Assembly (NCBI RefSeq): GCF_001183865.1
Contig: NZ_CP012020.1
Span: 2,165,839 to 2,229,838, forward strand
DNA length: 64,000 nucleotides
Reading direction: 5' to 3'
Origin: Methylophilus sp. TWE2
Lineage (GTDB): Bacteria > Pseudomonadota > Gammaproteobacteria > Burkholderiales > Methylophilaceae
Shown here: in pieces, positions 20,530 to 38,587 of the stretch
How the letters are laid out: every line of letters begins with the position of its first letter
Position numbering within the stretch: the stretch's first letter is position 1
Notes under the pieces: generated by a model
What the model was told of the DNA's origin: nothing
The model's database searches: none
What the model saw: the letters and a program-made list of their open reading frames with translations, nothing else
Translations under genes and position numbers: made by a program

Positions 20530-20545
20530 TGGCACGACAATTGCA
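20530..20545 (+). promoter_or_regulatory. Sigma-54 promoter of fnt-cynS operon
   Basis: TGGCACGACAATTGCA matches the -24/-12 consensus TGGCAC-N5-TTGC exactly, with correct GG-N10-GC spacing. Transcription should start near 20556, just before the hexaloop leader. Confidence 0.9.
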
Positions 20546-20595
20546 TTCATGACATTCCAGTAGGTGACCATGCGGGGTCTCAGGCGTCAAGAGGA

Positions 20596-20665
20596 GTGTC
20601 AACGGCGATACGCTCTCTAATATCAAGCCAGACCACCGCATAAGCACTGATGGACAAAGGCGTCC
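20596..20665 (+). promoter_or_regulatory. fnt leader: dual hexaloop ANTAR target
   Basis: Hairpin 1 (20596-20611) is GTGTC-AACGGC-GATAC with one G.T pair. Hairpin 2 (20652-20665) is GGAC-AAAGGC-GTCC. Both six-base loops have A at position 1 and G at position 4, the known ANTAR-recognition signature. Hairpin 2 shares its loop and 3' arm with the 5' arm of the terminator. Confidence 0.85.
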
Positions 20666-20706
20666 TGCCTGAAGATGAACTCTTCAGGCAGGACGCCTTT
20701 TTTATT
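20656..20706 (+). terminator. Attenuator terminator upstream of fnt
   Basis: A perfect 20-bp stem (20656-20675 with 20681-20700), 5-nt loop and T-run. It is only about 30 bp before the fnt start codon, so fnt should be silent unless NasR favours the hexaloop hairpins. Confidence 0.93.
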
Positions 20707-20733
20707 TTGTTTCAGCGTGATATTAGAGAAAGT

Positions 20734-21555
20734 ATGAGGTATTCGATGTCTTATTTAGCTCCCTCAGAGTTTGTATCCAAAATGGTAGATGCCGGAGAGT
20801 CAAAGATTTACATGTCTACACGTGACACCGTGATACGTGCTTATATGGCTGGGGCCATCTTGGCTTTAGCGGCAGTGTTTGCCGTCAGTATTGCGATTGC
20901 CACGGAATCCCATTTAATTGGTTCCATTTGTTTCCCTGTTGGTTTTTCCATGCTTTATCTGATGGGGTTTGATTTGTTAACAGGCGTGTTTGTGTTAACA
21001 CCATTGGCTTGGCTAGATAAACGTCCAGGCGTGACCTGGAATCAAATCCTGAGAAACTGGGGATTGGTGTTTTTGGGTAATTTTGCTGGCGCATTAACCG
21101 TGGCGGCGATGATGTCTTTTATTTTCACCTATGGCTACAACACAGATGGAGGTGCTATTGCGACCAAAGTAGCGGGCATTGGTGAAGCACGTACTTTAGG
21201 TTACGCAAAATATGGCATGGATGGCTGGTTTACCATTTTCATTCGCGGCATGTTATGTAACTGGATGGTCTCCATGGGCGTCGTAGGGGCCATGATCTCA
21301 ACTTCAGTGAGTGGCAAAGTGATTGCCATGTGGATGCCTATTTTCCTCTTCTTCTTTATGGGGTTTGAGCACTCAGTCGTGAATATGTTCTTGTTTCCAT
21401 TCGGTTTGATTATGGGCGGCAATTTTTCTATTGCTGACTACTTTATTTGGAATGAAATTCCAACTGCTTTAGGCAACATGGTGGGCGGTTTAGCCTTTAC
21501 TGGTTTAACCCTTTATACAACCCATGTCAGAACAAAAGCAAAACGTACCCTTTAA
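20734..21555 (+). CDS. Formate/nitrite transporter (FNT) family channel
   Basis: An about 273-residue inner-membrane protein with six predicted membrane helices and FNT signatures (AYMAGAILALAAVFAVSIA near the N-terminus, FLGNFAGALTVAAMMSFIF in the middle, FEHSVVNMFLFPFGLIMGG near the C-terminus). A longer reading from the ATG at 20650 would start inside the terminator hairpin, so I choose the ATG at 20734, preceded by AGAGAA. FNT proteins move small monovalent anions such as formate, nitrite or hydrosulfide. Co-transcription with cyanase and nitrate-type control point to nitrite or cyanate. It is not resolved which. Confidence 0.88.
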   Translation: MRYSMSYLAPSEFVSKMVDAGESKIYMSTRDTVIRAYMAGAILALAAVFAVSIAIATESHLIGSICFPVGFSMLYLMGFDLLTGVFVLTPLAWLDKRPGVTWNQILRNWGLVFLGNFAGALTVAAMMSFIFTYGYNTDGGAIATKVAGIGEARTLGYAKYGMDGWFTIFIRGMLCNWMVSMGVVGAMISTSVSGKVIAMWMPIFLFFFMGFEHSVVNMFLFPFGLIMGGNFSIADYFIWNEIPTALGNMVGGLAFTGLTLYTTHVRTKAKRTL

Positions 21556-21571
21556 TGAACGCAATAAGCCA

Positions 21572-21592
21572 CCTCAGCCATGATGGCTGAGG
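21572..21592 (+). other. Stem-loop between fnt and cynS
   Basis: A perfect 9-bp stem (CCTCAGCCA / TGGCTGAGG) with a 3-nt loop, followed by only three T and later a TTTTT. It could be a leaky terminator or an mRNA-stabilising hairpin. Confidence 0.5.
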
Positions 21593-21632
21593 TTTACTTC
21601 AGGGCTTTTTATAAAATGATTAGGAGTAAGCA

Positions 21633-22076
21633 ATGACACGCAATGAAGTCACCGAACTGATTATTACGCAAAAACTCAAATTGAATCTCACCTGGAAGCA
21701 ATTGGCAGACGCGATTGGTCTGAGTAAAGAATGGACAACCGCGGCGCTCATGGGACAAATGACGCTCAGCGCAGAGCAAGCCAGCACCATAGGCAGCATG
21801 CTACAACTACCGCCTGACGCCATCACGCAATTACAAGTCGTGCCTTATAAGGGTTCATTGCCCACGGCTGTGCCAACGGACCCTTTAATTTATCGCTTTT
21901 ATGAATTAATCAGTGTCTATGGCACCACGTTTAAGGCCTTGATTCACGAAGAGTTTGGTGACGGCATCATGAGTGCGATTGATTTCAATATGGAGATTAA
22001 ACGCGAAGCTGATCCTAAAGGTGACCGTGTCAACATCACCATGAGCGGTAAGTTCCTGCCTTATAAATCCTATTAA
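21633..22076 (+). CDS. cynS: Cyanate hydratase (cyanase)
   Basis: A 147-residue protein decomposing cyanate plus bicarbonate to ammonia and CO2. It has the N-terminal POU-like helix bundle (LTWKQLADAIGLSKEW). The C-terminal catalytic segment contains Arg88, Glu91 and Ser114, with the spacing (3 and 23 residues) of the E. coli active-site trio Arg96/Glu99/Ser122. The start ATG at 21633 follows a purine-rich TTAGGAG. It lies in the sigma-54/NasR-controlled operon with fnt and without the CynR/CynT genes of E. coli, so cyanate use here appears tied to nitrogen limitation and nitrate/nitrite. Confidence 0.95.
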   Translation: MTRNEVTELIITQKLKLNLTWKQLADAIGLSKEWTTAALMGQMTLSAEQASTIGSMLQLPPDAITQLQVVPYKGSLPTAVPTDPLIYRFYELISVYGTTFKALIHEEFGDGIMSAIDFNMEIKREADPKGDRVNITMSGKFLPYKSY

Positions 22077-22108: not shown

Positions 22109-23923
22109 ATGCAAAAGCAACTGATTGTCGATAAGGGTGCCTGCTCAAAGGCAGGACGCAAACAAGTCAATCAGGATGCCGAAGGTGGACGCGTTCCCGA
22201 AGCGCCTGCGCTGAGCAGCAAAGGCGCTGCCTTTGCCATTGCAGATGGCATCAGCAGCAGCGATGTCAGCGATCAAGCCAGCCGAATCGCCATCACGAGG
22301 TTTCTTGAGGACTATTACCACACCCCCATCGAATGGTCAGTCAAGTCTTCAGTGCAGCATGTGTTGCTGGCGATTAATTCATGGCTAAATGCACAGACTT
22401 TCCGCAGCCCACATCGTTTTGATAAAAACAAAGGGTTTGTTTGTACATTTAGTGCGCTGGTTATTAAGTCGCGCATGGTGCATATTTTTCACCTGGGCGA
22501 CACCCGCGTTTACCGTGTCAGAGCTGGTCATTTAGAGCAACTGACAGAAGACCATCGCTTCTGGGGCGAGGAAAATCGCAGTTACCTGGCACGTGCCCTG
22601 GGCATGAGCCCGCATCTGGAAATTGACTATACAAGCCATGAAGTAACAGTCGGTGACGTCTATCTATTGATGTCTGATGGTGTCTATGATCACTTAAAAA
22701 GTGATGACATCCTGACACTGCTTAACTCAGAGACTGACTTGGCCCAGGTGAGCCAGCAATGGGTGGCGCTGGCACACGAGCGCGGCAGTGCCGACAACCT
22801 GACCGCCATCGCCGTCCGCTTGCTACAACTGCCCGACCATGATGTGGCATCGCTGTATCAGGCCTTAAGCGCTTTGCCACTGCCCCCTGCCCTTGAAGAA
22901 GGTAAGCAGTTTGAGGGTTACCATATCCTGCGTGTACTGCATCAAAGTCACCGCAGTCAGGTCTACCTTGCCCGCGACATACCCACGGGCAGTCAGGTCG
23001 TGCTGAAAGTGCCGGCCACGGATTTAGCGGCCTCTGCCGAAACGCTGGAAAGATTTTATCTGGAGGAGTGGATCGGCCGCCGCATCCAGCACCGGCATGT
23101 GTTGCGCCCTTTCGCTTCTGAAAGACAGCGGCAGTCTCTTTACAGTGTGATGGAGTATGTGCCAGGGCAGACCCTGCAGCAGTGGATGCTGGATCATCCG
23201 CAACCCTCGCTGGAGATGGTCAGGCACATTGTAGAGCAGCTTGCCAATGCACTAGCAGCGTTTCATCGTCTGGAAATGGTCTACCAGGACCTGCAACCGG
23301 CCAACATCCTGATTGATGAGGATGGCAAAATCACGCTGATCGACTTTGGTGCAGTCAGCGTGGCAGGATTGGATGAAATGTACAGCCACACACAGACATG
23401 GGGGCTGTTGGGCAGCGTGCAATATTCTGCGCCAGAGCAGTTTATCGGCCAGCCTGGCAGTGTGCAAAGTGATTTATTTGCATTGGGATGTATTACCTAT
23501 CAGTTACTGACCGGAAAACTGCCCTATGGCACCGAGGTCGCCAAAATTAAGCACGGTGATGACCGCTTGCGTTTGTATTACCGCGATATCCGCTACGAAC
23601 AACCGGATTTTCCGGCCTGGATGGATCAGGCCATTGCACGCGCTGTACACCCCTATGCGGAAAAACGCTACCCCAGCCTGTCTGAGTTCGTGTTCGACTT
23701 ACGTACACCCAACCCTGCATTTAACCGCCACAGCCATCCTGCGTTGCTGCAAAGACATCCACTGGCGTTCTGGCGCGGCTTGAGTTTTTTGCTGGCCTGC
23801 GTGGTTTTTGTGCTGTTGGGCATGCTGGCCAACCAGCAGCAGGCCGAGCGCGCCAATCTTGAGCAAGCCGCACAAAAGCAGTGCGATTCAACCCACCGCC
23901 CGCTTGCCTGCCAAGCCAAATAA
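22109..23923 (+). CDS. PP2C phosphatase-Ser/Thr kinase fusion protein, copy 1
   Basis: A 604-residue two-enzyme polypeptide. Residues about 10-240 form a PP2C phosphatase (QVNQDAEGG, AIADGISSSDV, HLGDTRVYRV, LMSDGVYDHL, GSADNLTAIAV). Residues about 265-540 form a Hanks-type kinase with a lysine in VVLKVPA, a catalytic loop reading YQDLQPANILI instead of HRD, and an intact DFG. One C-terminal membrane helix (about 560-582) anchors it. Third in the fnt-cynS unit. Such fusions occur in nitrate loci of other proteobacteria. Substrates are unknown; a permease or NasR is an inference only. Confidence 0.88.
   Translation: MQKQLIVDKGACSKAGRKQVNQDAEGGRVPEAPALSSKGAAFAIADGISSSDVSDQASRIAITRFLEDYYHTPIEWSVKSSVQHVLLAINSWLNAQTFRSPHRFDKNKGFVCTFSALVIKSRMVHIFHLGDTRVYRVRAGHLEQLTEDHRFWGEENRSYLARALGMSPHLEIDYTSHEVTVGDVYLLMSDGVYDHLKSDDILTLLNSETDLAQVSQQWVALAHERGSADNLTAIAVRLLQLPDHDVASLYQALSALPLPPALEEGKQFEGYHILRVLHQSHRSQVYLARDIPTGSQVVLKVPATDLAASAETLERFYLEEWIGRRIQHRHVLRPFASERQRQSLYSVMEYVPGQTLQQWMLDHPQPSLEMVRHIVEQLANALAAFHRLEMVYQDLQPANILIDEDGKITLIDFGAVSVAGLDEMYSHTQTWGLLGSVQYSAPEQFIGQPGSVQSDLFALGCITYQLLTGKLPYGTEVAKIKHGDDRLRLYYRDIRYEQPDFPAWMDQAIARAVHPYAEKRYPSLSEFVFDLRTPNPAFNRHSHPALLQRHPLAFWRGLSFLLACVVFVLLGMLANQQQAERANLEQAAQKQCDSTHRPLACQAK
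23869..23885. promoter_or_regulatory. NtrC-like dyad upstream of nrtA promoter
   Basis: CGCAC-N7-GTGCG within the end of the kinase gene, centred about 119 bp before the predicted nrt start. It has the geometry of NtrC sites but differs from consensus at the outer bases. Confidence 0.45.
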
Positions 23924-23969
23924 ATAAAAATACTTATATATATCATGTAGTTAATTTTAAATTTCAAGC

Positions 23970-23985
23970 TGGCACACCACTTGCT
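23970..23985 (+). promoter_or_regulatory. Sigma-54 promoter of the nrt-nir-nas operon
   Basis: TGGCACACCACTTGCT fits the -24/-12 consensus fully. Start expected near 23996, giving a leader of about 185 nt before nrtA. Confidence 0.9.
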
Positions 23986-24025: not shown

Positions 24026-24095
24026 TGTCAACGGAGACATGCCCATCAATAGCAGCTGATATATAGATTAGTAAGTAACCCGGACAAAGGCGTCC
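24026..24095 (+). promoter_or_regulatory. nrtA leader: dual hexaloop ANTAR target
   Basis: Hairpin 1 (24026-24039) is TGTC-AACGGA-GACA. Hairpin 2 (24082-24095) is GGAC-AAAGGC-GTCC, identical to that of the fnt leader. Both loops carry A1 and G4. The distance from first to second hairpin (about 42 nt) is nearly the same as in fnt (about 40 nt). Confidence 0.87.
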
Positions 24096-24143
24096 TGAGT
24101 GCAAACAAAACACCGTTTGCACTCAGGACGCCTTTTTGTTTTT
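24086..24143 (+). terminator. Attenuator terminator upstream of nrtA
   Basis: A perfect 21-bp stem (24086-24106 with 24115-24135), 8-nt loop, and a T-rich tail of TTTTT-G-TTTTT. The first ten bases of the 5' arm are the same as in the fnt attenuator; the rest differ, showing conservation of pairing rather than sequence. Confidence 0.95.
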
Positions 24144-24180: not shown

Positions 24181-25482
24181 ATGAGTAGTTTTGACAAGAA
24201 AACCGCAGTCGAGACGACTGTCGTTCAGGCCACATCCGTAGACCAAACGCGCCGCCAATTTTTCCGCCAAGCCATTGCGGGCGCTGTCGGTGCTGCCGCA
24301 ATGATGAACATGGTGCCGCCTGTCATTCGCAGCCAGGCTTGGGCCGCAGGCTCTGATGCGCCAGAAATCACAGAAGTCAAAGTGGGCTTTATTCCATTGA
24401 CTGACTGTGCACCGATTATCGTCGCCGCCCAGATGGGTTTTGATAAAAAATACGGCATCAAGATTGTCCCTTCCAAAGAAGCCTCCTGGGCTGGCGTACG
24501 TGACAAGCTGGCGAATGGTGAGTTGCACGCTGCCCACGTGTTATACGGCCTGATTTATGGGGTGCAGATGGGTATCGGTGGTCAGCAAAAAGACATGAGT
24601 ATCCTGATGACGCTGAACCATAACGGCCAGGGCATCACACTGGCAAACCAGCTCAAGGAAAAAGGCGTGACCAGCGGCGGCACATTAAAACGCCTGCTCG
24701 ATAACGAAAACCGTGACTTTACCTTTGCCCAGACCTTCCCGACAGGCACGCACGCCATGTGGCTGTATTACTGGCTGGCCAACTATGGTATTAACCCGAT
24801 GCAGGACGTAAAAACCATCGTGGTGCCTCCGCCACAAATGGTGGCAAACATGCGTATTGGCAATATGGACGGTTACTGCGTGGGCGAACCCTGGAATGCG
24901 CGTGCCATTTATGACAAGGTCGGCTACACCGTGGCCACCACACAAGATATCTGGGTAGACCACCCTGAAAAAGTCCTGGGTACGACTGCTGACTTTATTG
25001 CCAAAAACCCCAACACGGCCCTGGCGCTCACCAAGGCCATCCTCGAAGCTTCGCGCTATATCGACGCGACCAAGAACCGCGCTGAAGTGGCCAAACTGAT
25101 TTCCGGCAAAGCCTACGTCAACGCACCGGAAGAAGTGATTGAAGGCCGCTTCCTCGGCCACTACGACAATGGCATCGGCAAAAAATGGGAAGACCCAAAC
25201 TACATGAAGTTCTTTAACGATGGCAAGGTCAGCTTCCCTTACCTGTCTGACGGCATGTGGTTCCTCACCCAGCATAAACGTTGGGGCTTGCTGAAGTCCG
25301 ATCCTGACTACCTGGGCATCGCCAAAAAAGTGAACCGTATTGATATCTACACTGAAGCTGCTAAATCACTGGGCATTAGCGTACCGACAGACGTCATGCG
25401 TAGCAGCAAGCTGATCGATGGCGTGGTGTGGGATGGCAAGGATCCTAAAGCCTACGCCAACAGTTTCAAGGTTAAAGCTTAA
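24181..25482 (+). CDS. nrtA: Nitrate ABC transporter substrate-binding protein (Tat-exported)
   Basis: A 433-residue NrtA/CmpA-family binding protein. The start ATG at 24181 follows AGGGAGAAAAC; upstream alternative codons overlap the terminator. A twin-arginine signal (TRRQFFRQAIAGAVGAAAMM, about residues 23-42) directs folded export. The mature domain begins with the family stretch KVGFIPLTDCAPIIVAAQMGF. It delivers nitrate, possibly nitrite, to NrtBC. First gene of a roughly 14-kb operon, expected to be off unless both sigma-54 activation and antitermination occur. Confidence 0.93.
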   Translation: MSSFDKKTAVETTVVQATSVDQTRRQFFRQAIAGAVGAAAMMNMVPPVIRSQAWAAGSDAPEITEVKVGFIPLTDCAPIIVAAQMGFDKKYGIKIVPSKEASWAGVRDKLANGELHAAHVLYGLIYGVQMGIGGQQKDMSILMTLNHNGQGITLANQLKEKGVTSGGTLKRLLDNENRDFTFAQTFPTGTHAMWLYYWLANYGINPMQDVKTIVVPPPQMVANMRIGNMDGYCVGEPWNARAIYDKVGYTVATTQDIWVDHPEKVLGTTADFIAKNPNTALALTKAILEASRYIDATKNRAEVAKLISGKAYVNAPEEVIEGRFLGHYDNGIGKKWEDPNYMKFFNDGKVSFPYLSDGMWFLTQHKRWGLLKSDPDYLGIAKKVNRIDIYTEAAKSLGISVPTDVMRSSKLIDGVVWDGKDPKAYANSFKVKA

Positions 25483-25500
25483 CTTTAGAGGAGAGTCACC

Positions 25501-26427
25501 ATGAGTGTCGTCAGCTTTAACAAGGAAAAGACTATGCAAACAAGCGAGCCAACTGTGAAAACAGTGCCTGCTAAACCAGTTGTTGCTGTGGTTAAACCTC
25601 TCTCAACCACAGCGACAGCAGCCGCCCCGCTTTTGCAGAAACGTGGAGCATGGGCGGCAACCGCCAAACGCGTATTTGAATGGCTGTTGCCGCCTGTGAC
25701 TGGCTTGCTGATATTTGCTGCCATCTGGGCCACGGTGTCTGCGCTCACACAAGGCTTGCCGGGCCCAGTCAAGACCTGGCAATCAGCCGTTGAGTTGTTC
25801 AGTGATCCGTTTTACATCAACAACCCGAATGATATGGGCATCGGCTGGAACATCCTTAACTCACTCAAACGGGTCGCCACCGGTTTTGCTTTGGCAGCCG
25901 TTGTCGGTATCCCGATGGGGTTTGTGATAGGCCGTTATGCGTTTATGTCGAGAATGGCTGCGCCTATCATCAGCTTGCTGAAACCAGTCTCGCCACTGGC
26001 CTGGTTACCGATTGGCCTGCTTGTTTTCAAGGCAGCTAACCCTGCTGCGATCTGGGTTATTTTCATCACTGCCGTGTGGCCCATGATCATCAACACTGCC
26101 GTCGGTGTCAGCAAGGTGCCACAAGACTATATGAATGTCGCCAAGGTGCTCAATTTATCTGAGTGGAAAATCGTCACCAAAATCCTGTTGCCATACGTGA
26201 TGCCTTACATGATGACGGGCGTACGTCTCTCCATCGGTGCAGCCTGGCTGGTGATTGTGGCAGCAGAAATGCTGACTGGCGGCGTGGGCATCGGCTTCTG
26301 GGTGTGGGATGAGTGGAACAACCTCAATGTTGAACACATCATCATCGCCATCTTTATTGTCGGTATTGTCGGCCTGCTGTTGGAACAATGCCTGGTGCTG
26401 GTGGCAAAACGCTACAGCTACGAATAA
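25501..26427 (+). CDS. nrtB: Nitrate ABC transporter permease
   Basis: A 308-residue inner-membrane permease of the NrtB/SsuC type. A cytoplasmic N-terminal tail of about 50 residues (A/T/V/P-rich) precedes about six membrane helices. The coupling-helix region is seen in YMNVAKVLNLSEWKIVTKILLP. The ATG at 25501 has GAGGAGAG upstream; a second ATG at 25534 with AAGGAAAAG is also plausible and would remove 11 residues. Placed 18 bp after nrtA and 23 bp before the ATPase gene. Confidence 0.93.
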   Translation: MSVVSFNKEKTMQTSEPTVKTVPAKPVVAVVKPLSTTATAAAPLLQKRGAWAATAKRVFEWLLPPVTGLLIFAAIWATVSALTQGLPGPVKTWQSAVELFSDPFYINNPNDMGIGWNILNSLKRVATGFALAAVVGIPMGFVIGRYAFMSRMAAPIISLLKPVSPLAWLPIGLLVFKAANPAAIWVIFITAVWPMIINTAVGVSKVPQDYMNVAKVLNLSEWKIVTKILLPYVMPYMMTGVRLSIGAAWLVIVAAEMLTGGVGIGFWVWDEWNNLNVEHIIIAIFIVGIVGLLLEQCLVLVAKRYSYE

Positions 26428-26450
26428 CCCGCTGCTAAAGGAATACCACT

Positions 26451-27260
26451 ATGACGAACAATATGATGCAAGACCGTTATGTCCTGATTGAAAACGTCAA
26501 CATGACGTTTCAAACCAAAAAAGGCAGCTTCCAGGCACTTAAAGATATCAACCTGAATATCCGTGAAGGCGAGTTTATTTCCATCATCGGTCACTCAGGT
26601 TGCGGTAAATCTACCGTGCTCAACCTGATTGCCGGTTTGCTGCAGCCTACTGAAGGCTACCTGTTTTGTGCCGGCCGCGAAATTGCCAAGCCTGGCCCAG
26701 AACGCGCTGTCGTGTTCCAGAACCATTCTCTGCTGCCCTGGCTGACCTGTTTTGAAAATGTCTACCTGGCGGTGGAGCGTGTGTTTGGTGATACGGAAGG
26801 ACCGACGCAATTAGCCGAACGTACACGTGCCGCGCTGGAACTCGTTGGTTTAAGCCACGCCGTGGAAAAACGCCCGAATGAAATCTCCGGCGGCATGAAA
26901 CAGCGCGTGGGCATTGCCCGCGCCCTGGCCATGGAGCCCAAAGTGCTACTTCTGGACGAGCCGTTTGGTGCGTTGGATGCACTCACCCGGGCCGGACTGC
27001 AAGACGAGCTGATGGCCATCATGTCCCGTTCCGGTTGCACGGCCGTCATGGTCACACACGATGTCGACGAAGCCGTACTGTTATCAGACCGCATCGTCAT
27101 GATGACCAATGGCCCGGCAGCAACGATTGGTGAAATTTTAGAGGTTGATCTGCCACGTCCGCGCAAACGCCTGGAGCTGGTAGAAGACCCGGCTTACACG
27201 CATCTGCGTAGCGAGGTCTTGAAGTTTTTGTATGAAAGACACGCCAAAAAGGCGGCATAA
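26451..27260 (+). CDS. nrtC: Nitrate ABC transporter ATPase
   Basis: A 269-residue ATP-binding subunit. It has Walker A GHSGCGKST, Q-loop near VVFQNHSLLPW, signature ISGGMKQRVGIARAL, Walker B VLLLDEPFGALD and the switch His in VTHDVDEAV. It resembles NrtD/NasD ATPases and lacks the C-terminal nitrate-binding extension of cyanobacterial NrtC. The next gene follows after an 84-bp gap. Confidence 0.92.
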   Translation: MTNNMMQDRYVLIENVNMTFQTKKGSFQALKDINLNIREGEFISIIGHSGCGKSTVLNLIAGLLQPTEGYLFCAGREIAKPGPERAVVFQNHSLLPWLTCFENVYLAVERVFGDTEGPTQLAERTRAALELVGLSHAVEKRPNEISGGMKQRVGIARALAMEPKVLLLDEPFGALDALTRAGLQDELMAIMSRSGCTAVMVTHDVDEAVLLSDRIVMMTNGPAATIGEILEVDLPRPRKRLELVEDPAYTHLRSEVLKFLYERHAKKAA

Positions 27261-27344
27261 AAAATGATGCTGACGGGCGGTCACCCGCCAGCATCCACAC
27301 CTCATCGAAGTATGGTTACCCCCACATTGAAAAAGGAGCAACAC

Positions 27345-28775: not shown

Positions 28776-28798
28776 TTTAACCAAGTAAGGAACTGCCT

Positions 28799-29584
28799 AT
28801 GACTTCAGCCGCAAAAGTGTATTTAGTGGGTGCCGGACCCGGCGATCCCGACCTCATTACGCTCAAGGCCATCAAGGTCCTGCAGCAAGCAGAGGTTGTG
28901 CTGGTCGATGACCTGGTCAATCCGGCCTTGCTCGCGCATTGCCCGCAGGCACGCATCGTGCCGGTTGGCAAGCGTGGCGGCTGCAAGTCTACCCCGCAGC
29001 ACTTCATCAACCGCATGCTGGTCGCACTGGCCGAACAGGGACAAGTGGTTGTCCGCCTCAAGGGCGGCGACCCTTTTGTCTTTGGCCGGGGCGGTGAAGA
29101 AATGCTGGCGTTAAGAGCGGCAAATATCCCCTATGAAATTATTCCAGGCATGACCAGTGGTTTGAGCGCCTGCGCCAGTATGGAAGTGCCAGCCACCCAC
29201 CGCAGTTACAACCATGGTGTCACGCTGATTACCGGTCACACCCAGGACGGGGAGCCATTGCCGTGGCGAGCCCTGGTGGAGAGTCATACCACGCTGGTAA
29301 TTTACATGGGCATGCAGCACCTGCCAGACATCAGCCGCGGGCTCATTGCTGCCGGCATGTCTCCTGACATGCCCTGCATGGTGGTAGAGAACGGTACCCG
29401 CGACAACCAGCGCGCGGCCATTTCTTCATTACAGGCCATGCCTTATGAGGCGCATCAGCAAGGTCTGAAAAGCCCGGCCATTATCGTGGTCGGTGAAGTT
29501 GTGAAATTAGCAAGAACAAGCCAGCAAGACCAAGACTGGCAACAAAACCTGCAACGCTGGGCCAGCCTGGCGGATGCAGCATAA
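28799..29584 (+). CDS. cobA: Uroporphyrinogen-III C-methyltransferase (SUMT) for siroheme
   Basis: A 261-residue S-adenosylmethionine-dependent enzyme making precorrin-2, the precursor of siroheme. It has the tetrapyrrole-methylase motif VGAGPGDPDLITLKAIKVLQ at the N-terminus and RLKGGDPFVFGRGGEE near residue 85. It is a stand-alone methyltransferase without the oxidase/chelatase half of CysG, so ferrochelation must be encoded elsewhere. Its position directly before nirB, which needs siroheme, fits a dedicated cofactor supply. Confidence 0.93.
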   Translation: MTSAAKVYLVGAGPGDPDLITLKAIKVLQQAEVVLVDDLVNPALLAHCPQARIVPVGKRGGCKSTPQHFINRMLVALAEQGQVVVRLKGGDPFVFGRGGEEMLALRAANIPYEIIPGMTSGLSACASMEVPATHRSYNHGVTLITGHTQDGEPLPWRALVESHTTLVIYMGMQHLPDISRGLIAAGMSPDMPCMVVENGTRDNQRAAISSLQAMPYEAHQQGLKSPAIIVVGEVVKLARTSQQDQDWQQNLQRWASLADAA

Positions 29585-32031: not shown

Positions 32032-32041
32032 ATGAAAAAGT

Positions 32042-32068
32042 GGCGTGCGAGCATTGCTATCGCACGCC
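32042..32068 (+). other. Stem-loop between nirB and the nitrate permease
   Basis: A perfect 9-bp stem (GGCGTGCGA / TCGCACGCC) with a 9-nt loop, ending just before the GGAGAG ribosome site of the next gene. No T-run follows, so it may affect message stability or translation rather than terminate. Confidence 0.5.
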
Positions 32069-32081
32069 CTGGAGAGACAAG

Positions 32082-33293
32082 ATGCAAAAAAGCTTTTGGG
32101 AAGTCGGCCATAAACCTACTCTGTTTTCGGCCTTTTTTTACTTTGACCTGAGTTTTATGGTCTGGGTCATGCTGGGGCCACTGGCGGTACAAATCGCTGC
32201 TGACCTGCAACTGAATCCGGCCCAAAAAGGCCTGATGGTGGCCACTCCGGTGCTCACCGGGGCTATCCTGCGTATCGTCATGGGCGTGCTGGTAGACCAG
32301 CTCAAGCCGAAAAAAGCAGGCCTGATCGGCCAGGTCATTGTGATTGCAGCCTTGCTGACCGCATGGCTGCATGGCATCCAAACTTATCAGCAGGCCTTGC
32401 TGCTGGGCGTGTTCCTCGGCTTTGCTGGCGCAGCATTTGCGGTGGCGTTGCCGCTGGCTTCCCGCTGGTATCCGCCTGAGCACCAGGGGACTGCCCTGGG
32501 CATTGCAGGCGCAGGTAACTCCGGCACGGCATTGGCCGCCCTGTTTGCGCCTGGCCTGGCGGTCGCCTTTGGCTGGAACAATGTGTTTGGCCTGGCACTG
32601 ATTCCACTGGCGCTCGCCCTGATTGTCTATGTCGCCATGGCCAAAGATGCGCCTGATACGCCTGCGGCCAAATCGCTATCGCAATATCTGGCAGTGCTCA
32701 AGGATAAAGACGCCTGGTGGTTTATGTTTTTCTACAGTGTCACTTTTGGCGGTTTTGTCGGGATGGCGTCTTCATTAACCATTTACTTCCATGACCAGTA
32801 TGGTCTGGATGCGGTACATGCAGGTTACTTTACAGCCGCGTGTGTCTTTGCCGGCTCACTGGTGCGCCCGTTCGGTGGCTTACTGGCAGACCGTATTGGC
32901 GGCATCCGCAGCCTGAGCAGCATGTATGTGCTGGCAGCCGTGTTCCTGTTTATCCTGAGCTTTGGCATTGCTAGCCAGTCCTTAGGATTATTGGTTGTCG
33001 TGTTGGCGATGGCGGCTCTGGGCATGGGCAATGGCGCCGTGTTCCAGCTGGTGCCTCAGCGCTTCCGCAAGGAAATCGGGGTCATGACTGGCCTGGTCGG
33101 TATGGCAGGCGGGGTGGGTGGTTTTTACCTGGCATCCAGCCTGGGCTATTCCAAGCAAATCAGCGGCAGCTACCAGCTGGGCCTGACCATTTTTGCCGGA
33201 TTGGCGATCTTGGCGCTGATCGGCTTGTCCAGCGTGAAAAACCGCTGGCGTACCACCTGGGGCGCAGCAACCGTGACCACAGCCAAGATTTAA
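32082..33293 (+). CDS. MFS nitrate/nitrite transporter (NarK/NasA family)
   Basis: A 403-residue inner-membrane permease with about twelve helices. Nitrate-permease signatures are visible: GAILRIVMGVLVDQL (with the nitrate-contacting Arg region), GIAGAGNSGTALAALFAPG and the C-terminal-half GLVGMAGGVGGFYLASSLG. The ATG at 32082 has GGAGAGACAAG upstream. Having both an ABC importer and this MFS permease in one operon suggests use over different nitrate ranges, or nitrite export by this one. Confidence 0.92.
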   Translation: MQKSFWEVGHKPTLFSAFFYFDLSFMVWVMLGPLAVQIAADLQLNPAQKGLMVATPVLTGAILRIVMGVLVDQLKPKKAGLIGQVIVIAALLTAWLHGIQTYQQALLLGVFLGFAGAAFAVALPLASRWYPPEHQGTALGIAGAGNSGTALAALFAPGLAVAFGWNNVFGLALIPLALALIVYVAMAKDAPDTPAAKSLSQYLAVLKDKDAWWFMFFYSVTFGGFVGMASSLTIYFHDQYGLDAVHAGYFTAACVFAGSLVRPFGGLLADRIGGIRSLSSMYVLAAVFLFILSFGIASQSLGLLVVVLAMAALGMGNGAVFQLVPQRFRKEIGVMTGLVGMAGGVGGFYLASSLGYSKQISGSYQLGLTIFAGLAILALIGLSSVKNRWRTTWGAATVTTAKI

Positions 33294-33345
33294 GCTAGCA
33301 TCCATACCGTTATTCAAACATAGCGTCATTCAAACGGAAGCCAGG

Positions 33346-35034
33346 ATGAAACTCACTTTCAGTGTAGGCGAAAGCAGTCTGACAGGGCCCAGACCTCGCA
33401 ATGAGGACTATATCGGCCTGGTCACGCCTGCGGATGCCCAACTGGGCATCAAAGGGGCTTTGCTGGCGGTGGCCGATGGCGTGAGTGGTGGCGAGGGAGG
33501 TAAAGAAGCGGCTGAAATGACGGTACGCACGATCTCGGCAGACTACTATGCGACACCGGACACCTGGACCGTACAGCACGCGCTGGACAAAGTCATCCAG
33601 GCAGCTAACCGCTGGGTATTATCGCAAGCGCGCAAGCATAATCACATGGCTGGCATGGCCACCACCCTCTCCTTGATGGTATTGCGCGGGCAGCGGTATG
33701 TGATGGCCCATGTCGGCGATACACGCATTTACCGCCTACGCGAGCAATCCCTGCAATGCCTGACCACTGACCATGTGTGGGACAGGCCGGATATGCGCCA
33801 TGTCCTCAAACGGGCGGTCGGTCTGGATGACCAGCTCAGTGTCGATTACGCTGAAGGACTGCTACAAACAGGGGATGTCTATGCCATCGTCAGTGACGGT
33901 GTGTGGGCGGCGCTGGGTGATGCCGAAGTGCATAAAGTGCTCATGCTCTACCATACCCCGCAGCTGATGGCCGAGCATCTGGCCAGCCTGGCGCTTGAAA
34001 AAGGGGGGCAGGATAACGCCTCCGCAGTGGTGGTACGTATTGACCAGGTGGGGGAAGATCAGCTGACCGACATGCTGGCTGACGCGCTCAGTTTGCCTGT
34101 GCCAGCCAAGCTTGCCATTGGCGATCAACTGGATGGCTTTACCGTCACACAAATCCTGCACGATTCGCGCGTCAGCCTCATTTATCAGGTCAGGAATGCC
34201 ACCGGGCAGCTGTTTGTATTAAAAACGCTGCAACCCAACCGGGCAGATGATAAAACCACTTGTGAAGCCCTGCTCAATGAGGAGTGGCTGGCCAAACGCG
34301 TGGTGTCTCAGTGTGTGCCACAGATATTGCCGCTCACACGCGAGCAGCGCAGTGCGCTCTATTACGTGATGACCTGGCATGAGGGTGCCACTCTGCAACA
34401 ACGGCTTGAGGCCGGGCATCATTTCACCATCAATGGTGTAGCCAATATCGGCCAGGAGTTGCTACGTGGCCTGAGCATGCTGCACCGCCTGGATATTGTG
34501 CACCGCGACATCAAACCGGCCAACATCCATATGGGCAGTGACAACCGTTTGCGTATCCTGGACCTGGGCGTGGCCCTAAGTAGCACCGTGCCTATGCCTG
34601 AGCAAATGGAAAATCCCGGTACGCCCAGCTTTATGGCGCCAGAGCTGTTTGACGGCAAAGTAGCTGACCGCCAGGCAGACATCTACGCGGCCGGTGTGAC
34701 GCTTTATCACTTGCTGACACGCAAGTATCCCTACGGTGAAATCGAGCCTTTCCAGTCACCCCGCTTTGGTGAGCCTATCCGGCCTAGCCGTTACCGGCCC
34801 GAAATCCCCGCCTGGCTGGAAAACGTGATTCTTAAGGCCATTGCCAGAAAGCCGGCTGATCGTTTTGAAACGGCTGAAGAAATGCTGCTGGCCATGGAAC
34901 ACGGCGAACTGAAACCGATAGTGATTCCCCGTACACCGCTCATTGCACGGGCGCGTCTGGTCAAATGGCAATGGCTGGCCGTCATCTCGCTGTGTATGAA
35001 TGTGTTATTGATTTATTTGTTACTGGTTTCTTAA
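33346..35034 (+). CDS. PP2C phosphatase-Ser/Thr kinase fusion protein, copy 2
   Basis: A 562-residue fusion with the same order as copy 1: PP2C (about 5-235; RNEDYIGLV, VADGVSGGEGG, HVGDTRIYRL, SDGVWAAL, GGQDNASAVVV), kinase (about 260-525) and a C-terminal membrane helix (WLAVISLCMNVLLIYLLLV). Here the catalytic loop is canonical (IVHRDIKPANIHM), the lysine is in FVLKTLQPN, and DFG reads DLG. Set between the nitrate permease and nirD. The two copies are diverged, so they are an old duplication or separately acquired. A role in reversible control of nitrate uptake is only inferred. Confidence 0.88.
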   Translation: MKLTFSVGESSLTGPRPRNEDYIGLVTPADAQLGIKGALLAVADGVSGGEGGKEAAEMTVRTISADYYATPDTWTVQHALDKVIQAANRWVLSQARKHNHMAGMATTLSLMVLRGQRYVMAHVGDTRIYRLREQSLQCLTTDHVWDRPDMRHVLKRAVGLDDQLSVDYAEGLLQTGDVYAIVSDGVWAALGDAEVHKVLMLYHTPQLMAEHLASLALEKGGQDNASAVVVRIDQVGEDQLTDMLADALSLPVPAKLAIGDQLDGFTVTQILHDSRVSLIYQVRNATGQLFVLKTLQPNRADDKTTCEALLNEEWLAKRVVSQCVPQILPLTREQRSALYYVMTWHEGATLQQRLEAGHHFTINGVANIGQELLRGLSMLHRLDIVHRDIKPANIHMGSDNRLRILDLGVALSSTVPMPEQMENPGTPSFMAPELFDGKVADRQADIYAAGVTLYHLLTRKYPYGEIEPFQSPRFGEPIRPSRYRPEIPAWLENVILKAIARKPADRFETAEEMLLAMEHGELKPIVIPRTPLIARARLVKWQWLAVISLCMNVLLIYLLLVS

Positions 35035-35079
35035 GCCCTGGCGCTGAGAAAACAGATTCAAGTTGGAAAAGAGGAAATA

Positions 35080-35391
35080 ATGAGTTGGACTAAAATTTGC
35101 CCGGTAAACGACATCCCGGCCCTGGGCGCGCGCGTGGTGCGTCATGGCGAGATCGACATCGGCGTGTTCCGTACACAAGATGACCGCGTATTCGCACTCA
35201 ACAACAGTTGCCCGCACAAAGGTGGCCCGCTGTCACAAGGCATTGTCTATGGTGACAAAGTCGCCTGTCCACTGCACAGCTGGAAAATCAGCCTGGTGGA
35301 TGGCAAGGCCGAAGAACCGGATGTTGGTGAAACCGCCTGCTATGCCGTCAAGGTAGAAGATGGCATGGTCTATCTGCAATTAAATAAGTAA
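35080..35391 (+). CDS. nirD: Nitrite reductase small subunit with Rieske site
   Basis: A 103-residue Rieske-fold protein that pairs with NirB. The four [2Fe-2S] ligands are intact: Cys44/His46 in SCPHKGGP and Cys63/His66 in CPLHSW. Many NirD proteins, including that of E. coli, lack these, so this is the cluster-bearing form. The ATG at 35080 follows GAGGAAATA. The catalytic nitrate reductase gene starts 22 bp after it. Confidence 0.93.
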   Translation: MSWTKICPVNDIPALGARVVRHGEIDIGVFRTQDDRVFALNNSCPHKGGPLSQGIVYGDKVACPLHSWKISLVDGKAEEPDVGETACYAVKVEDGMVYLQLNK

Positions 35392-35412
35392 TTTGTAATT
35401 TCCAGGTATCGT

Positions 35413-38181
35413 ATGACGCAACAGCAACAACTCCAGACCTCCAACCATGCGCTGACCGCAGAGCCGGTCACGTTTTACCAGCAACGGCGCGAAACGCGCA
35501 GCACTTGCTGCTATTGCGGCGTTGGCTGTGGCGTCATCATTACCACTGAAGGCCAGCAGATTGTTGATGTGAAGGGTGACCCCGAGCACCCTGCCAACTA
35601 TGGCCGCTTATGCACCAAAGGCTCTACGCTACACCTGACCGCCAAACTGGATGCACGCGCGCTGTACCCGGAAGTCCGCCTGTCGCGAGACCTGCCGCGT
35701 ACGCGCGTCAGCTGGGATACCGCGCTCGATCATGTGGTTGAGCGCTTTGCCGAGATTATCAACACCCATGGCCCGGATGCAGTGGCTTTTTATATCTCCG
35801 GCCAGTTGCTCACCGAAGATTATTATGTCTTTAACAAGCTGGCCAAGGGCCTGATTGGCACCAACAACGTCGATACCAATTCCCGCCTGTGCATGAGTTC
35901 TGCCGTCGCCGGTTACAAGGCCACGCTGGGCGCCGATGCACCACCGGCCTGTTATGAGGATATCGACCATACGCAATGCCTGTTTATTGCTGGCTCGAAT
36001 ACCGCTTTTGCCCACCCGATTGTGTTCCGCCGTATTGAAGATGCCAAAGCCAGGAATCCGGATATGAAAATGGTGGTGGTCGATCCACGCCGCACCGATA
36101 CCGCACAGCTGGCCGACTTGCACCTGGCAATTTTGCCCGGCACCGATGTCGCGCTATTTAACGGCTTGCTGCATGTGATGCTGTGGGAAGGCCTACTGGA
36201 TATGGCTTATATCCGCAACCATACCGAAGGCTTTGAAGCGCTCAAGGAAACCGTGCGCGAATATACGCCCAAGATGGTGGCGGATATTTGCGGTGTGCGC
36301 GAAGCAGACATTATCCAGGCCGCCAAGTGGTTTGGTGCGGGCCCAACCTTGTCCATGTATTGCATGGGGCTGAACCAGTCCATCCATGGCACCGAAAAAA
36401 ATGCCGCGCTGATCAACCTGCACCTGGCCACCGGCCAGATCGGCAAGCCCGGCGCAGGCCCGTTCTCGCTGACGGGCCAACCCAACGCCATGGGCGGCCG
36501 TGAGGTCGGCGGCATGGCCAACCTGCTGTCGGGCCACCGCGACCTGGCCAATGCCGACCACCGTGCAGAAGTCGCGCGCCTGTGGGGCGTGCCCGACGTC
36601 CCGGCCACGCCAGGCAAAACCGCCGTGGAAATGTTTGAAGCGGTTCAAAATAGCGAGATCAAGGCAATCTGGATTGCCTGCACCAACCCTGCGCACTCCA
36701 TGCCAGACCTCAATAATGTGCTGGCGGCCTTGCAGAATGCCGAGCTGGTCGTACTGCAAGATGCGTTTAATAATACCGACAGCAATCCCTATGCCGATGT
36801 GTTGCTGCCTGCCTCCACCTGGGGCGAAAAAGAAGGCACGGTCACCAACTCAGAGCGCCGCATCACACGCGTGCAGCCTGCGGCGCCCAAGCCGGGTGAA
36901 GCCCGTCATGACTGGGAAGCCGTGGTCGACTTTGCGCAGCGGCTGGAACAGAAACTGGGTAAAACCCAAACGCTGTTTAATTACCCGAACACCGAAACCA
37001 TTTTTAATGAGCACCGCGAAAGTACACGTGGCCGCGATCTTGATATCACCGGTCTGACCTATAAGATTCTGGAAAGCCAGGGTCCGCAACAATGGCCCTT
37101 TAAATCTGGGGCCACCCAAGGCGAAGCCCGCTTGTATACCGATGGCGTGTTCCAGAAACCGGGTGGCAAGGCGCATTTTGTCAGCGCGGTCTATAAACCA
37201 ACCGCGGACAAACCGGATGCGCGTCATCCGTTCCACCTGCTGACCGGCCGCCTGCGCGACCAGTGGCATGGCATGAGCCGTACCGGCACCCTGGCTCAGC
37301 TTTACAACCATGTTGAAGAACCAGTCGTATCCATGCACCGCGACGACATGCAGCGCCGCCAAATTAAAGACGGTGACATCGTTAAACTCAGTAACAAGCG
37401 CGGGGAGTTAACCATCAAGGTGCAGGCATCGGACGAAGTCAAACCGGCAGAGTTGTTTATCCCCATGCACTGGGGCAGCCAGTTTATGCATGGCCTGGGC
37501 GTGAATGCGCTGATGCCGCCTGCGTTTGACAAAAGCTCCAAGCAACCCGAGCTGAAACACACCGCAGTCAAGATCGAAAAACTGAGCTTGCCGTGGCAGA
37601 TGACGGTGATGCGCAGTTGTAACGACCTGACCTTGCTGGCCGAAATACGTCGCCTGTTGGTCGCCTTTGATTATGCGACCGTGGGCCTGTATGGCCGTGG
37701 CAGCGGCATGCTGATTTTACGGGCTGCCCACAGCGCCGCGCCGGATAGTAAACTGATTGCTCAACTGGACCAGTTGCTCGGCATGGTAGAGGATGCGCCC
37801 ATGCTGCGCCTGGATGATGTCAAACGTGGCATTAGCAAACGTATCCTGGTCGAACAAGGCCAGGTCAGCGCAGTTCGCCTGATTGGTGAAACGCTGGCAG
37901 CAGACTGGCTCAAGCAAGTCATGCTTGAAGGCCAGTTTACCGACGAGCTGCGCAAGTGGGCTCTCGCCCCGCTGGCCGCGCCGCCTACAGGACAAAAATC
38001 ACGCGGCAAAATCGTCTGTAACTGTCTGGATGTCTCAGAAAACGAGATTATCGAAGCCTGCCTACAGGGAGCAGATTTGCCCACGCTGCAAGCCAAGCTC
38101 AAATGCGGCACCAGCTGCGGCTCCTGCTTACCAGAGCTTAAACGGCTGGTGAAACTGCATGGCAAAACCCATGCGGAGTAA
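35413..38181 (+). CDS. nasC: Assimilatory nitrate reductase catalytic subunit
   Basis: A 922-residue cytoplasmic molybdoenzyme reducing nitrate to nitrite. The N-terminal [4Fe-4S] motif is Cys32-Cys35-Cys39...Cys67 (CCYCGVGCG ... RLCTKG). The bis-MGD molybdopterin oxidoreductase body includes GTNNVDTNSRLCMSSAVAGY, whose Cys is the likely Mo ligand. The molydopterin dinucleotide-binding domain begins near HPFHLLTGRLRDQWH. A C-terminal BFD-like [2Fe-2S] domain (VCNCLDVSENEI ... CGTSCGSC) ends the protein, as in Klebsiella NasA. No separate flavoprotein partner (NasB/NasC-type) is in the window. Last gene of the operon. Confidence 0.94.
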   Translation: MTQQQQLQTSNHALTAEPVTFYQQRRETRSTCCYCGVGCGVIITTEGQQIVDVKGDPEHPANYGRLCTKGSTLHLTAKLDARALYPEVRLSRDLPRTRVSWDTALDHVVERFAEIINTHGPDAVAFYISGQLLTEDYYVFNKLAKGLIGTNNVDTNSRLCMSSAVAGYKATLGADAPPACYEDIDHTQCLFIAGSNTAFAHPIVFRRIEDAKARNPDMKMVVVDPRRTDTAQLADLHLAILPGTDVALFNGLLHVMLWEGLLDMAYIRNHTEGFEALKETVREYTPKMVADICGVREADIIQAAKWFGAGPTLSMYCMGLNQSIHGTEKNAALINLHLATGQIGKPGAGPFSLTGQPNAMGGREVGGMANLLSGHRDLANADHRAEVARLWGVPDVPATPGKTAVEMFEAVQNSEIKAIWIACTNPAHSMPDLNNVLAALQNAELVVLQDAFNNTDSNPYADVLLPASTWGEKEGTVTNSERRITRVQPAAPKPGEARHDWEAVVDFAQRLEQKLGKTQTLFNYPNTETIFNEHRESTRGRDLDITGLTYKILESQGPQQWPFKSGATQGEARLYTDGVFQKPGGKAHFVSAVYKPTADKPDARHPFHLLTGRLRDQWHGMSRTGTLAQLYNHVEEPVVSMHRDDMQRRQIKDGDIVKLSNKRGELTIKVQASDEVKPAELFIPMHWGSQFMHGLGVNALMPPAFDKSSKQPELKHTAVKIEKLSLPWQMTVMRSCNDLTLLAEIRRLLVAFDYATVGLYGRGSGMLILRAAHSAAPDSKLIAQLDQLLGMVEDAPMLRLDDVKRGISKRILVEQGQVSAVRLIGETLAADWLKQVMLEGQFTDELRKWALAPLAAPPTGQKSRGKIVCNCLDVSENEIIEACLQGADLPTLQAKLKCGTSCGSCLPELKRLVKLHGKTHAE

Positions 38182-38234
38182 GGATATCCAAACCGGACTT
38201 ACCTGAGGGCAGTTGAATCTCAACAGTGGCCAAA

Positions 38235-38266
38235 ACAGGATTGCGCCAAGGATGGTGCAATCCTGT
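38235..38266 (+). other. Strong hairpin with an ANTAR-like hexaloop after nasC
   Basis: ACAGGATTGC pairs perfectly with GCAATCCTGT. The stem continues with GCC/GGT (one G.T) and closes the six-base loop AAGGAT, which has A1 and G4. It sits upstream of the sigma-54 promoter of the next unit, so it would be in the nasC 3' region, not in the nirB2 leader. No T-run follows. Several GTGCA half-sites occur at 38254-38291. Confidence 0.55.
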
Positions 38267-38417
38267 GCACATGCCTCATTAGCGTGCACCAGACCAATGG
38301 CAGATGGATCGCGCGGTGCCCGCAAGCTCAAACATACACGCAAGCTTGCAGATAAAACACATCAGGAACAATGACTTAGCATAAATCCTGATTCATCTGC
38401 GCCCCCATCCTGGCGGT

Positions 38418-38433
38418 TGGCATGCCAATTGCT
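38418..38433 (+). promoter_or_regulatory. Sigma-54 promoter of the second nirBD unit
   Basis: TGGCATGCCAATTGCT fits the -24/-12 consensus (T for C at one tolerated position) with exact spacing. Start expected near 38444, about 230 nt before the second nirB gene. I could not find a clear NtrC dyad at the -115 position used by the other units. Confidence 0.85.
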
Positions 38434-38476
38434 TTTTTATCACAAAGTGGCGTTTTATCATGCCATTTTTAAATCA

Positions 38477-38522
38477 GAGATTTTCCATCGTCGGCAAATC
38501 TCATACTGGACAACGGCGTCCA
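38477..38522 (+). promoter_or_regulatory. nirB2 leader: dual hexaloop ANTAR target
   Basis: Hairpin 1 (38477-38502) has a 7-bp stem GAGATTT/AAATCTC, one T.C mismatch and CC/GG closing the loop ATCGTC (A1, G4). Hairpin 2 (38507-38522) is TGGAC-AACGGC-GTCCA (A1, G4). The two are only 4 nt apart, much closer than in the fnt and nrtA leaders. Confidence 0.82.
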
Positions 38523-38587
38523 TAGCTTGTTTCGCAGGATTGCAATGTGCAATCGCGGCATAGGCTATGGACGCCGTTTTTGTTTTT
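38512..38587 (+). terminator. Attenuator terminator upstream of nirB2
   Basis: A perfect 15-bp stem (38512-38526 with 38564-38578) and T-run TTTTT-G-TTTTT. Its 37-nt loop contains a further small hairpin GATTGC/GCAATC. The 5' arm begins at the hexaloop of hairpin 2, so the structures are mutually exclusive. Confidence 0.93.

Follow-up and report, generated by a model that had tools for sequence, protein, structure and literature searches.

The leader RNAs controlled by ANTAR-domain antiterminators are described as two hairpins, P1 and P2, each closed by a six-base loop (hexaloop), the second hairpin overlapping an intrinsic terminator. The search model of Ramesh 2012 uses stems of at least 3 bp and hexaloops with adenine at position 1 (A1) and guanine at position 4 (G4), and it permits a variable linker between the hairpins. 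In the available portions of the papers that define ANTAR RNAs the same A1/G4 letters are given; the part of the actinobacterial work available to us reports them as conserved in >50 percent, so departures from G4 are already in print. Here we analyse a stretch of 64,000 nucleotides from Methylophilus sp. TWE2 (NZ_CP012020.1, positions 2,165,839 to 2,229,838; hereafter the window), in which a nitrate locus with its regulator gene nasR lies beside the amidase genes amiE, amiC and amiR. We estimate a probability of roughly two in three that this locus carries four ANTAR dual-hexaloop attenuators and two adjoining ANTAR antiterminators, NasR and AmiR, distinguished by loop position 4.

The contacts between an ANTAR domain and its hexaloop have been described for EutV of Enterococcus faecalis, where Arg142, Lys149 and Glu160 hold G4, Tyr164 stacks on G4 and Met172 plugs the loop. 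The substitution E160A costs 60-fold in affinity, Y164A costs 55-fold and M172A abolishes binding. According to the accessible parts of the eut studies, a G4-to-A change in either loop lowers induction, the P1-P2 linker spans 5-12 nucleotides with 14 impairing function, and, in later structural work, EutV contacts are restricted to one hexaloop at a time.

Four leaders with P2-overlapping terminators

The regulators and leader elements of the window are as follows, with loops in square brackets.

18422..19084, + strand: amiR, pseudo-receiver (AmiR_N) plus ANTAR domain, between amiC and nasR; best PDB match 1qo0
19146..20414, + strand: nasR, NIT plus ANTAR domain (PF08376 E 2.8e-43, PF03861 E 1.2e-19; PDB 4akk E 2e-31)
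20529..20545, + strand: sigma-54 -24/-12 site of leader 1, exact pattern match
20596..20611, + strand: leader 1 P1, GTGTC[AACGGC]GATAC
20652..20665, + strand: leader 1 P2, GGAC[AAAGGC]GTCC
20656..20700, + strand: leader 1 terminator, 20 bp, both arms perfect, followed by a T run
23969..23985, + strand: sigma-54 site of leader 2, exact pattern match
24026..24039, + strand: leader 2 P1, TGTC[AACGGA]GACA
24082..24095, + strand: leader 2 P2, GGAC[AAAGGC]GTCC
24086..24135, + strand: leader 2 terminator, 21 bp
38417..38433, + strand: sigma-54 site of leader 3, exact pattern match
38478..38501, + strand: leader 3 P1, AGATTTTCC[ATCGTC]GGCAAATCT, one internal mismatch
38507..38522, + strand: leader 3 P2, TGGAC[AACGGC]GTCCA
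38512..38578, + strand: leader 3 terminator, 15 perfect bp and then a branched inner stem
15988..16007, + strand: amiE leader P1, CACCGTC[AACAGC]GCCGGTG, loop with A1 and A4; minimum-energy hairpin
16015..16028, + strand: amiE leader P2, GAGC[AAAAAA]GCTC, loop with A1 and A4
16019..16060, + strand: amiE leader terminator, 5' arm beginning at loop 2; folding z -4.8

A preliminary description of this DNA had placed dual A1/G4 hexaloop hairpins with P2-overlapping terminators at the three nitrate leaders, given the terminators as perfect over 15-21 bp, put a sigma-54-like promoter on each leader and named an adjoining NIT-ANTAR gene, nasR. Every one of these elements is present, and it is the fourth leader and the second ANTAR protein, AmiR, that the description missed.

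A scan for hexaloop hairpins in which the loop is also the start of a terminator arm, the loop letters being left free, returned seven places in the window: leaders 1-3, one before amiE, and three weaker ones with loops that are not A-initial. Five control windows, with letters shuffled within 500-base blocks, gave two places in total and none with A1 and G4. The folding z-scores of leaders 1, 2 and 3 are -6.9, -7.3 and -7.5. All three exact matches to the sigma-54 pattern YTGGCAYN5TTGCW in the window fall at these leaders; with one mismatch there are eight in the window in all, which is about the shuffle level (6.0). The core GGACAANGGCGTCC has three exact copies in the whole genome, again all at leaders 1-3. 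Its three one-mismatch copies were each read over 251 surrounding bases, where no terminator was seen, and the exact-core search, which leaders having other cores could escape, found no further leader in the genome.

Set beside the Ramesh 2012 description, leaders 1-3 have two hairpins of at least 3 bp with A1/G4 hexaloops, and in all four leaders P2 overlaps an intrinsic terminator. The amiE leader has the hexaloops and A1, with A replacing G4 in both loops. The P1-P2 linkers measure 40 nucleotides in leader 1, 42 in leader 2, 5 in leader 3 and 7 in the amiE leader, which puts leaders 1 and 2 outside the range seen in eut.

The A4 loops of the amiE leader are conserved. An AmiR match was found in 9 of 150 Methylophilaceae genomes, the window's included, and all nine have A4 in both amiE-leader loops (P1 loops AACAGC or AACAGA; P2 loops AAAAAA in eight and AAGAAA in one), with a perfect 7-bp P1 stem in three of them (L085, L086, L087). 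In the same nine genomes amiR stands beside amiE and amiC, and NasR is present throughout, one copy (G139) being split over two contigs.

Residue 160 of AmiR and base 4 of the P1 loop

Over the ANTAR domain, window NasR and AmiR each align to the EutV chain (6wsh) with no gap, so residue positions can be transferred. At EutV positions 142, 149, 160, 164 and 172, NasR, with its NIT domain followed by ANTAR, has R, K, E, Y and M and thus the complete set of RNA contacts. AmiR, which has the AmiR_N pseudo-receiver and ANTAR domain of its class and adjoins AmiC, has A, Q, A, Y and M.

AmiR proteins and their leaders were gathered by an AmiR_N search of the order (25 of 399 genomes), the class (4 of 369), one further family (17 of 349) and the phylum (25 of 398), sets that overlap and from which some matches went unfetched. 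To these were added AmiE loci from named genomes (80 retained out of at least 591) and nine plasmid records of 252 matched. In 39 AmiR-leader pairs the ANTAR domain was readable and P1 could be identified. All 23 AmiRs with Glu160 are paired with a P1 loop carrying G4, and all 16 without it with a loop carrying A4. Column 160 is the sole AmiR column (among those with at most four gaps) that separates the two groups perfectly, the runner-up being position 143 at 0.875. The 16 rows lacking Glu comprise the nine Methylophilaceae and L111, L299, L303, L226, L213, L228 and L211, among which L111 and L299 are identical across the AmiR part used in the tree; the residues that accompany A4 are A, I, D, N, K and R. 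One genome (G1165) has two AmiR paralogues, Glu/G4 (L297) and Asp/A4 (L299), each with a fitting leader.

Two other contacts were considered as the deciding residue and set aside. Lys149 performs less well than 160, since Asp160 and Asn160 proteins that keep Lys149 pair with A4, and Arg142 is likewise weaker, since Ala142/Glu160 proteins (L293, L297) pair with G4.

The P1 hairpins were picked by hand, usually as the nearest good hairpin and with the residues known beforehand. In a uniform refold of the 50 nucleotides before P2, the named P1 was the minimum-energy hairpin in 39/39, and an A1 hexaloop formed in 24/39 (12 non-Glu, all A4; 12 Glu, all G4). A farther hairpin outscored the chosen P1 in L298 and L299 and tied with it in L155, L217, L223 and L227; L145 (P2 loop of 7) and the L296 P1 were read by eye, and L090 duplicates G075. 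When the tree was built with the ANTAR domain removed, residue 160 and the loop base changed three times each and all three pairs agree, although several long branches are unsure in placement and an earlier 31-row tree gave four changes.

The loci that were dropped fall into several groups. AmiR was present and no leader found in L209, L210, L229, L231, L237, L239, L242, L243, L244, L247, L301 and L302; P1 could not be identified in L290 and L291; L240 has a leader and no AmiR reading frame was found there; L215 has Lys149 replaced and no leader; and L212, L241, L300, L304 and L307 encode other divergent ANTAR proteins. Fourteen near-amiE ANTAR genes were also left out (L110, L114, L115, L117, L119, L120, L123, L126, L132, L146, L151, L164, L166, L169); all carry Glu160, and L110 and L120 have the P2 loop ATCGAA (G4). 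A further group has Thr at 172 (L214, L218, L220, L221, L222, L225, L232, L294, L305, L306, L308-L313). Where read, position 149 in these proteins is Thr, Val, Ile or Ala, and hardly any clear A1 hexaloop leader turned up nearby; this AmiR-like subclass may read another RNA form.

The Paraburkholderia plasmid locus L213 has two divergent A4 leaders (691, 930), one before amiE and the other on the opposite strand, 5' of a cytosine permease gene at the edge of the locus, and may thus hold an A4 regulon with two units.

Conservation of the nitrate leaders

At E 1e-10, 28 of 150 family genomes gave a NasR match, several of the matches being partial. We read 23 NasR loci (20 relatives, the window, G139 and G010), leaving out G071, whose frame contains one stop, and the partial matches G006, G007, G011 and G116. 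Leaders are present in 21 of the 23, and none was found in G016 or G010. The 41 leaders precede nrtA (19), nirB2 (13), fnt (7) or a porin-like gene (2); a paired terminator was required by the scan, and two of them (G057 fnt, G062 nirB2), where the scan took a shifted hairpin, were re-registered by the core. All 41 have G4 in loop 2, and all 41 have a sigma-54-like site within 230 nucleotides upstream under a looser pattern. Over the 41 leaders, 18 distinct 8-base sequences occur in the arm immediately inside P2, pairing being a condition of the scan.

P1 is kept less evenly. Of the 28 fnt, nrtA and porin leaders, 23 scored with an A1/G4 P1, its loop being AAYGGN in 21 of those 23, and 21 of the 28 leaders have a P1 at p<=0.05 against shuffles. 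The best-scoring P1 lies 25-132 nucleotides from P2, and the scoring missed the P1 of leader 2, whose stem is just 4 bp before a mismatch. Among the 13 nirB2 leaders a canonical A1/G4 P1 was scored in four, or five if the unscored G105 (ACCGTC) is counted; in most others a helix still adjoins P2 with a loop that, by eye, appears to be of seven or more nucleotides.

Nitrate leaders are still carried by relatives that have NasR and no AmiR match, which fits NasR as their reader and makes it their likely regulator. This supports the regulator named in the preliminary description; its local NasR regulon is incomplete as an account of the window, given AmiR and its leader, and the phrase "three-member NasR regulon" overstated what are three neighbouring operons of one nitrate locus. 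The inclusion of cyanate genes holds for the window, where cynS comes second in unit 1, and less well beyond it, with cyanase present in only four of the seven loci that have fnt.

Two additional features around the leaders were rejected. A long-range pairing, TCTCTAATATCA/TGATATTAGAGA, around leader 1 is shared by the window with its closest relative but is absent from the five other fnt leaders, and was discarded as a general element. Sites for NtrC are unsupported beyond a single fair, though weak, NtrC-like palindrome, TGCACTTATGTGGTGCG, located 5' of leader 1 (20437..20453, + strand): the window has 12 matches against 16.7 expected from shuffles, and so no excess. A perfect palindrome resembling an NtrC site, TGCACTTTTTAAGTGCA, lies elsewhere, at 59210-59226.

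A model with two readers and its alternatives

Promoter use, ligands, binding, antitermination and the direction of specificity are predicted here from sequence. Under nitrogen shortage, sigma-54 transcription would be expected and would end by default at the leader terminator. Nitrate or nitrite sensed by the NIT domain of NasR would release the ANTAR domain to grip the hexaloop hairpins, and P2, so held, would be kept out of the terminator, allowing the nitrate genes to be read through. The amiE leader would work likewise, with AmiR as its reader, released by AmiC on amides. NasR, with Glu160, would read G4, while AmiR is without Glu160 and both loops of its own leader have A4. It is about an even bet that recognition follows a code linking residue 160 to hexaloop base 4, in which Glu160 reads G4 and the Glu160-less AmiR clades read A4, and that this code allows two ANTAR antiterminators per cell to act without cross-talk; nasR and amiR would here be a natural orthogonal pair.

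Several observations weigh against these proposals. The linkers of 40 and 42 nucleotides are far beyond the length already too long in eut, and the restriction of EutV to one hexaloop at a time makes them easier to accept. Leader 3 P1 does not hold as a conserved canonical hexaloop, its loop being poorly kept (4/13) and not conserved in more distant relatives. For the amiE leader of the window and of the four relatives nearest to it, P1 could also form in an alternative register with the A1/G4 loop AGCGCC, which tied in a crude scan (four of nine rows); the minimum-energy fold picks AACAGC over AGCGCC, and by eye L084-L087 are without the alternative. The uniform refold pairs loop letters 1 and 6, leaving a tetraloop, in 15/39 (4 non-Glu, 11 Glu). 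One exception to the association is Roseibium L246, entered in the 39 rows with its G4 leader, whose Glu160 AmiR also has a second leader with the P1 loop AACAGC (A4). Loop 2 departs from the rule, several Glu160 AmiRs having A4 there and one T4. Only one of the three changes in the tree falls on well supported branches, and the sign test, which cannot reach significance with one such change, is not significant. Finally, a Delftia-like genome (G644) combines a Glu160 AmiR and a P1 G4 leader with a 478-residue NIT protein of NasR size. Separation of AmiR and NasR is therefore not always needed, and we do not uphold insulation as a general rule.

What we observe directly, namely the sequences, their conservation and the residue-loop association, can be accounted for in other ways. 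The association could reflect shared ancestry of a few clades with no functional link, as the single independent pair on well supported branches and the total of only three changes would allow. We find this doubtful, because residue 160 outperforms every other AmiR column compared and had been pointed out beforehand by the EutV structure, and because A4 accompanies several distinct replacements. It is similarly doubtful that only P2 works in the nitrate leaders, with P1 optional and "dual hexaloop" too strong a term. The distance of the best-scoring P1 in the fnt, nrtA and porin leaders, the nine of 13 nirB2 leaders with no A1/G4 P1 scored and the binding of single hexaloops by EutV all suit such an arrangement, whereas the frequency and AAYGGN loops of P1 in the fnt, nrtA and porin leaders do not, nor does the loss of eutP induction on deletion of P1 (as given in the portion of that report available to us).

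Alternatively, NasR alone might read all four leaders, with AmiR a relic or acting elsewhere and A4 a product of drift, the stem and closing pair being sufficient. All four leaders do share C:G-closed A1 hexaloops and the P2-terminator overlap. This explanation is improbable given the lowered induction of eut leaders with G4-to-A changes, the retention of A4 in both loops in 9/9 relatives, and an AmiR that retains Tyr164 and Met172 and accompanies amiE and amiC in every one of them. Less probable still is a reader encoded elsewhere in the genome. The 3.08 Mb source genome carries four ANTAR genes, and one of them, an orphan encoding 77 residues, retains Glu160 and Tyr164; that gene and the one for a receiver-ANTAR protein (L002) both lie far from the locus, both proteins are without Met172, which EutV needs, and the latter also lacks Tyr164. 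The proposal of four attenuators with NasR and AmiR as their two readers thus remains the one we prefer.

The two remote ANTAR genes are of some note in themselves. The 77-residue protein (L004 1474-1707, - strand) is barely more than an ANTAR domain, and the receiver-ANTAR protein (L002 1462-2082, - strand), next to an open reading frame that looks kinase-like by eye, has most RNA-contact residues changed and may not read hexaloops.

Relation to the Rfam family RF00625 (Pseudomonas sRNA P11)

Rfam searched at gathering score gave no match over the window. With a lenient cut-off, RF00625 matches the three nitrate leaders full-length (20518-20697, 23958-24132 and 38406-38575) at 33.6, 32.3 and 21.0 bits (E 0.00046, 0.001 and 0.74), below the gathering score of 70 that would make them members. 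Since leader 1 is also matched on its opposite strand, at 21.2 bits, the weakest leader match means little alone. Its consensus contains UUGGCACAagcaCUGCa (GG-N10-GC, the sigma-54 spacing), a P1 of CCcG[AUAGAA]CgGG with A1 and G4, and a P2 of GGAC[AAAGGC]GUCC that runs into a terminator.

Among 139 genomes of the class, nine have a match to RF00625, none over the cut-off; eight of them are genomes other than the source. Sub-threshold matches were recorded at L314, L315, L317, L318 and L321. In five of the eight, P2 overlaps a terminator and the gene that follows encodes an NMT1_2 protein (nitrate-binding type) or a NirB-like oxidoreductase; in the other three no P2-terminator overlap was seen. 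In each of the five, an ANTAR gene with contacts R/K/E/Y-or-H/M lies no more than about 4.5 kb 5' of the leader. On these sequence features P11 is better read as a putative leader of the ANTAR attenuator kind than as a free sRNA gene. Two papers, a 2012 Microbiology study of antitermination at nirBD and a preprint of 2024, reportedly may already call P11 an ANTAR leader, so we do not claim this reading as unpublished.

In the parts of the P11 literature available to us, P11 is a small RNA that regulates the nitrogen-assimilation operon of PA14 and induces inherited avoidance in worms (PMC12080996), a claim of inheritance that has been disputed (PMC11942167), and NfiR, a P. stutzeri non-coding RNA placed beside a nitrite reductase gene, appears together with P11 as its listed homologue (PMC6606865). 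Those parts of the three papers contain no statement that P11 is an ANTAR-controlled leader. If P11 is a sigma-54/ANTAR attenuator leader, the worm-avoidance RNA would be a prematurely ended transcript of a nitrate operon, and its level would be expected to vary with nitrogen supply and with nitrate.

Gene content of the locus

The + strand order is amiE, amiC, amiR, nasR, leader 1, fnt, cynS, a PP2C-kinase gene and leader 2; then nrtA, nrtB, nrtC, a gene like those of outer-membrane porins, a tetrapyrrole methylase gene, nirB1, an MFS gene, a second PP2C-kinase gene, a nirD-like gene and nasA; and finally leader 3, nirB2 and a Rieske gene. The remaining features are listed below; the extents of units 2 and 3 are predicted.

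16121..17143, + strand: amiE, aliphatic amidase (CN_hydrolase), 82-98% identity to the 80 relatives retained out of at least 591
17263..18429, + strand: amiC, AmiC-type ligand-binding regulator (PDB 1pea AmiC E 2e-94)
20744..22076, + strand: unit 1, fnt (formate/nitrite transporter; putative start codon) and cynS (cyanase)
22109..23923, + strand: unit 1, PP2C and Ser/Thr kinase fusion
24181..38181, + strand: unit 2, nrtA through nasA (nitrate reductase)
35080-35391, + strand: nirD-like open reading frame of unit 2, outside the Pfam scan
38674..41632, + strand: unit 3, nirB2 and a Rieske-type open reading frame

The name aliphatic amidase is the label of the Paraburkholderia AmiE homologue, and the closest named relative among the AmiE matches listed is Methylophilus methylotrophus DSM 46235 (AmiE 98% identity). 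Two PP2C and Ser/Thr kinase fusions stand within the nitrate units (22109-23923 and 33346-35034) and recur there in relatives, and two different NirB-type nitrite reductase genes occupy separate units of the one locus (29599-32031 and 38674-41250).

Discussion

A literature search of CC-licensed PMC papers listed no title on A4 loops and yielded no report of a partner code between residue 160 and loop position 4. Because ANTAR targets are sought with A1/G4 models, A4 leaders could be overlooked. If true, a residue-to-base code would allow regulators to be matched to RNAs from sequence and would supply tool builders with a pair of antiterminators that work independently. The question of how a cell with several ANTAR proteins keeps each of them off the leaders of the others also becomes testable.

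In comparison with known systems, the window is like nasF/NasR of Klebsiella oxytoca (as described in the accessible part of that work) in its NIT-ANTAR regulator, matching PDB 4akk, its nitrate genes and its A1/G4 hexaloops with a C:G closing pair; it differs in having three leaders rather than one, long P1-P2 linkers in two of them and a second ANTAR system. Similarly, the amiC-amiR pair beside amiE resembles AmiC-AmiR of Pseudomonas aeruginosa, with 1qo0 and 1pea as top PDB matches. The P. aeruginosa AmiR, however, retains Lys149 and Glu160 where the window protein has Gln149 and Ala160, and its amiE leader is reported, in the available portion of the source, with A1/G4 in both loops where the window leader has A4 in both. 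Enterococcus faecalis EutV/eut shares the P1/P2 hexaloops, the competition of P2 with a terminator and the Tyr and Met contacts, and is unlike this locus in its phosphorylated receiver input, short linker (5-12 nucleotides) and firmicute host. RF00625 has the sigma-54-like site, dual loops and overlapping terminator, although it is filed as a free sRNA gene.

The preliminary description had presented the locus as an advance on the single Klebsiella nas leader; this was overstated, as Ramesh 2012 and the Bradyrhizobium NasT work had already reported regulons in which several nitrogen operons per genome have ANTAR leaders. Those regulons have other regulators and gene sets, and the word "cyanate" is absent from both main texts. 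Multi-leader ANTAR control of nitrogen genes is thus already known in kind, and the differently coded AmiR pair beside it is the more interesting part of this locus.

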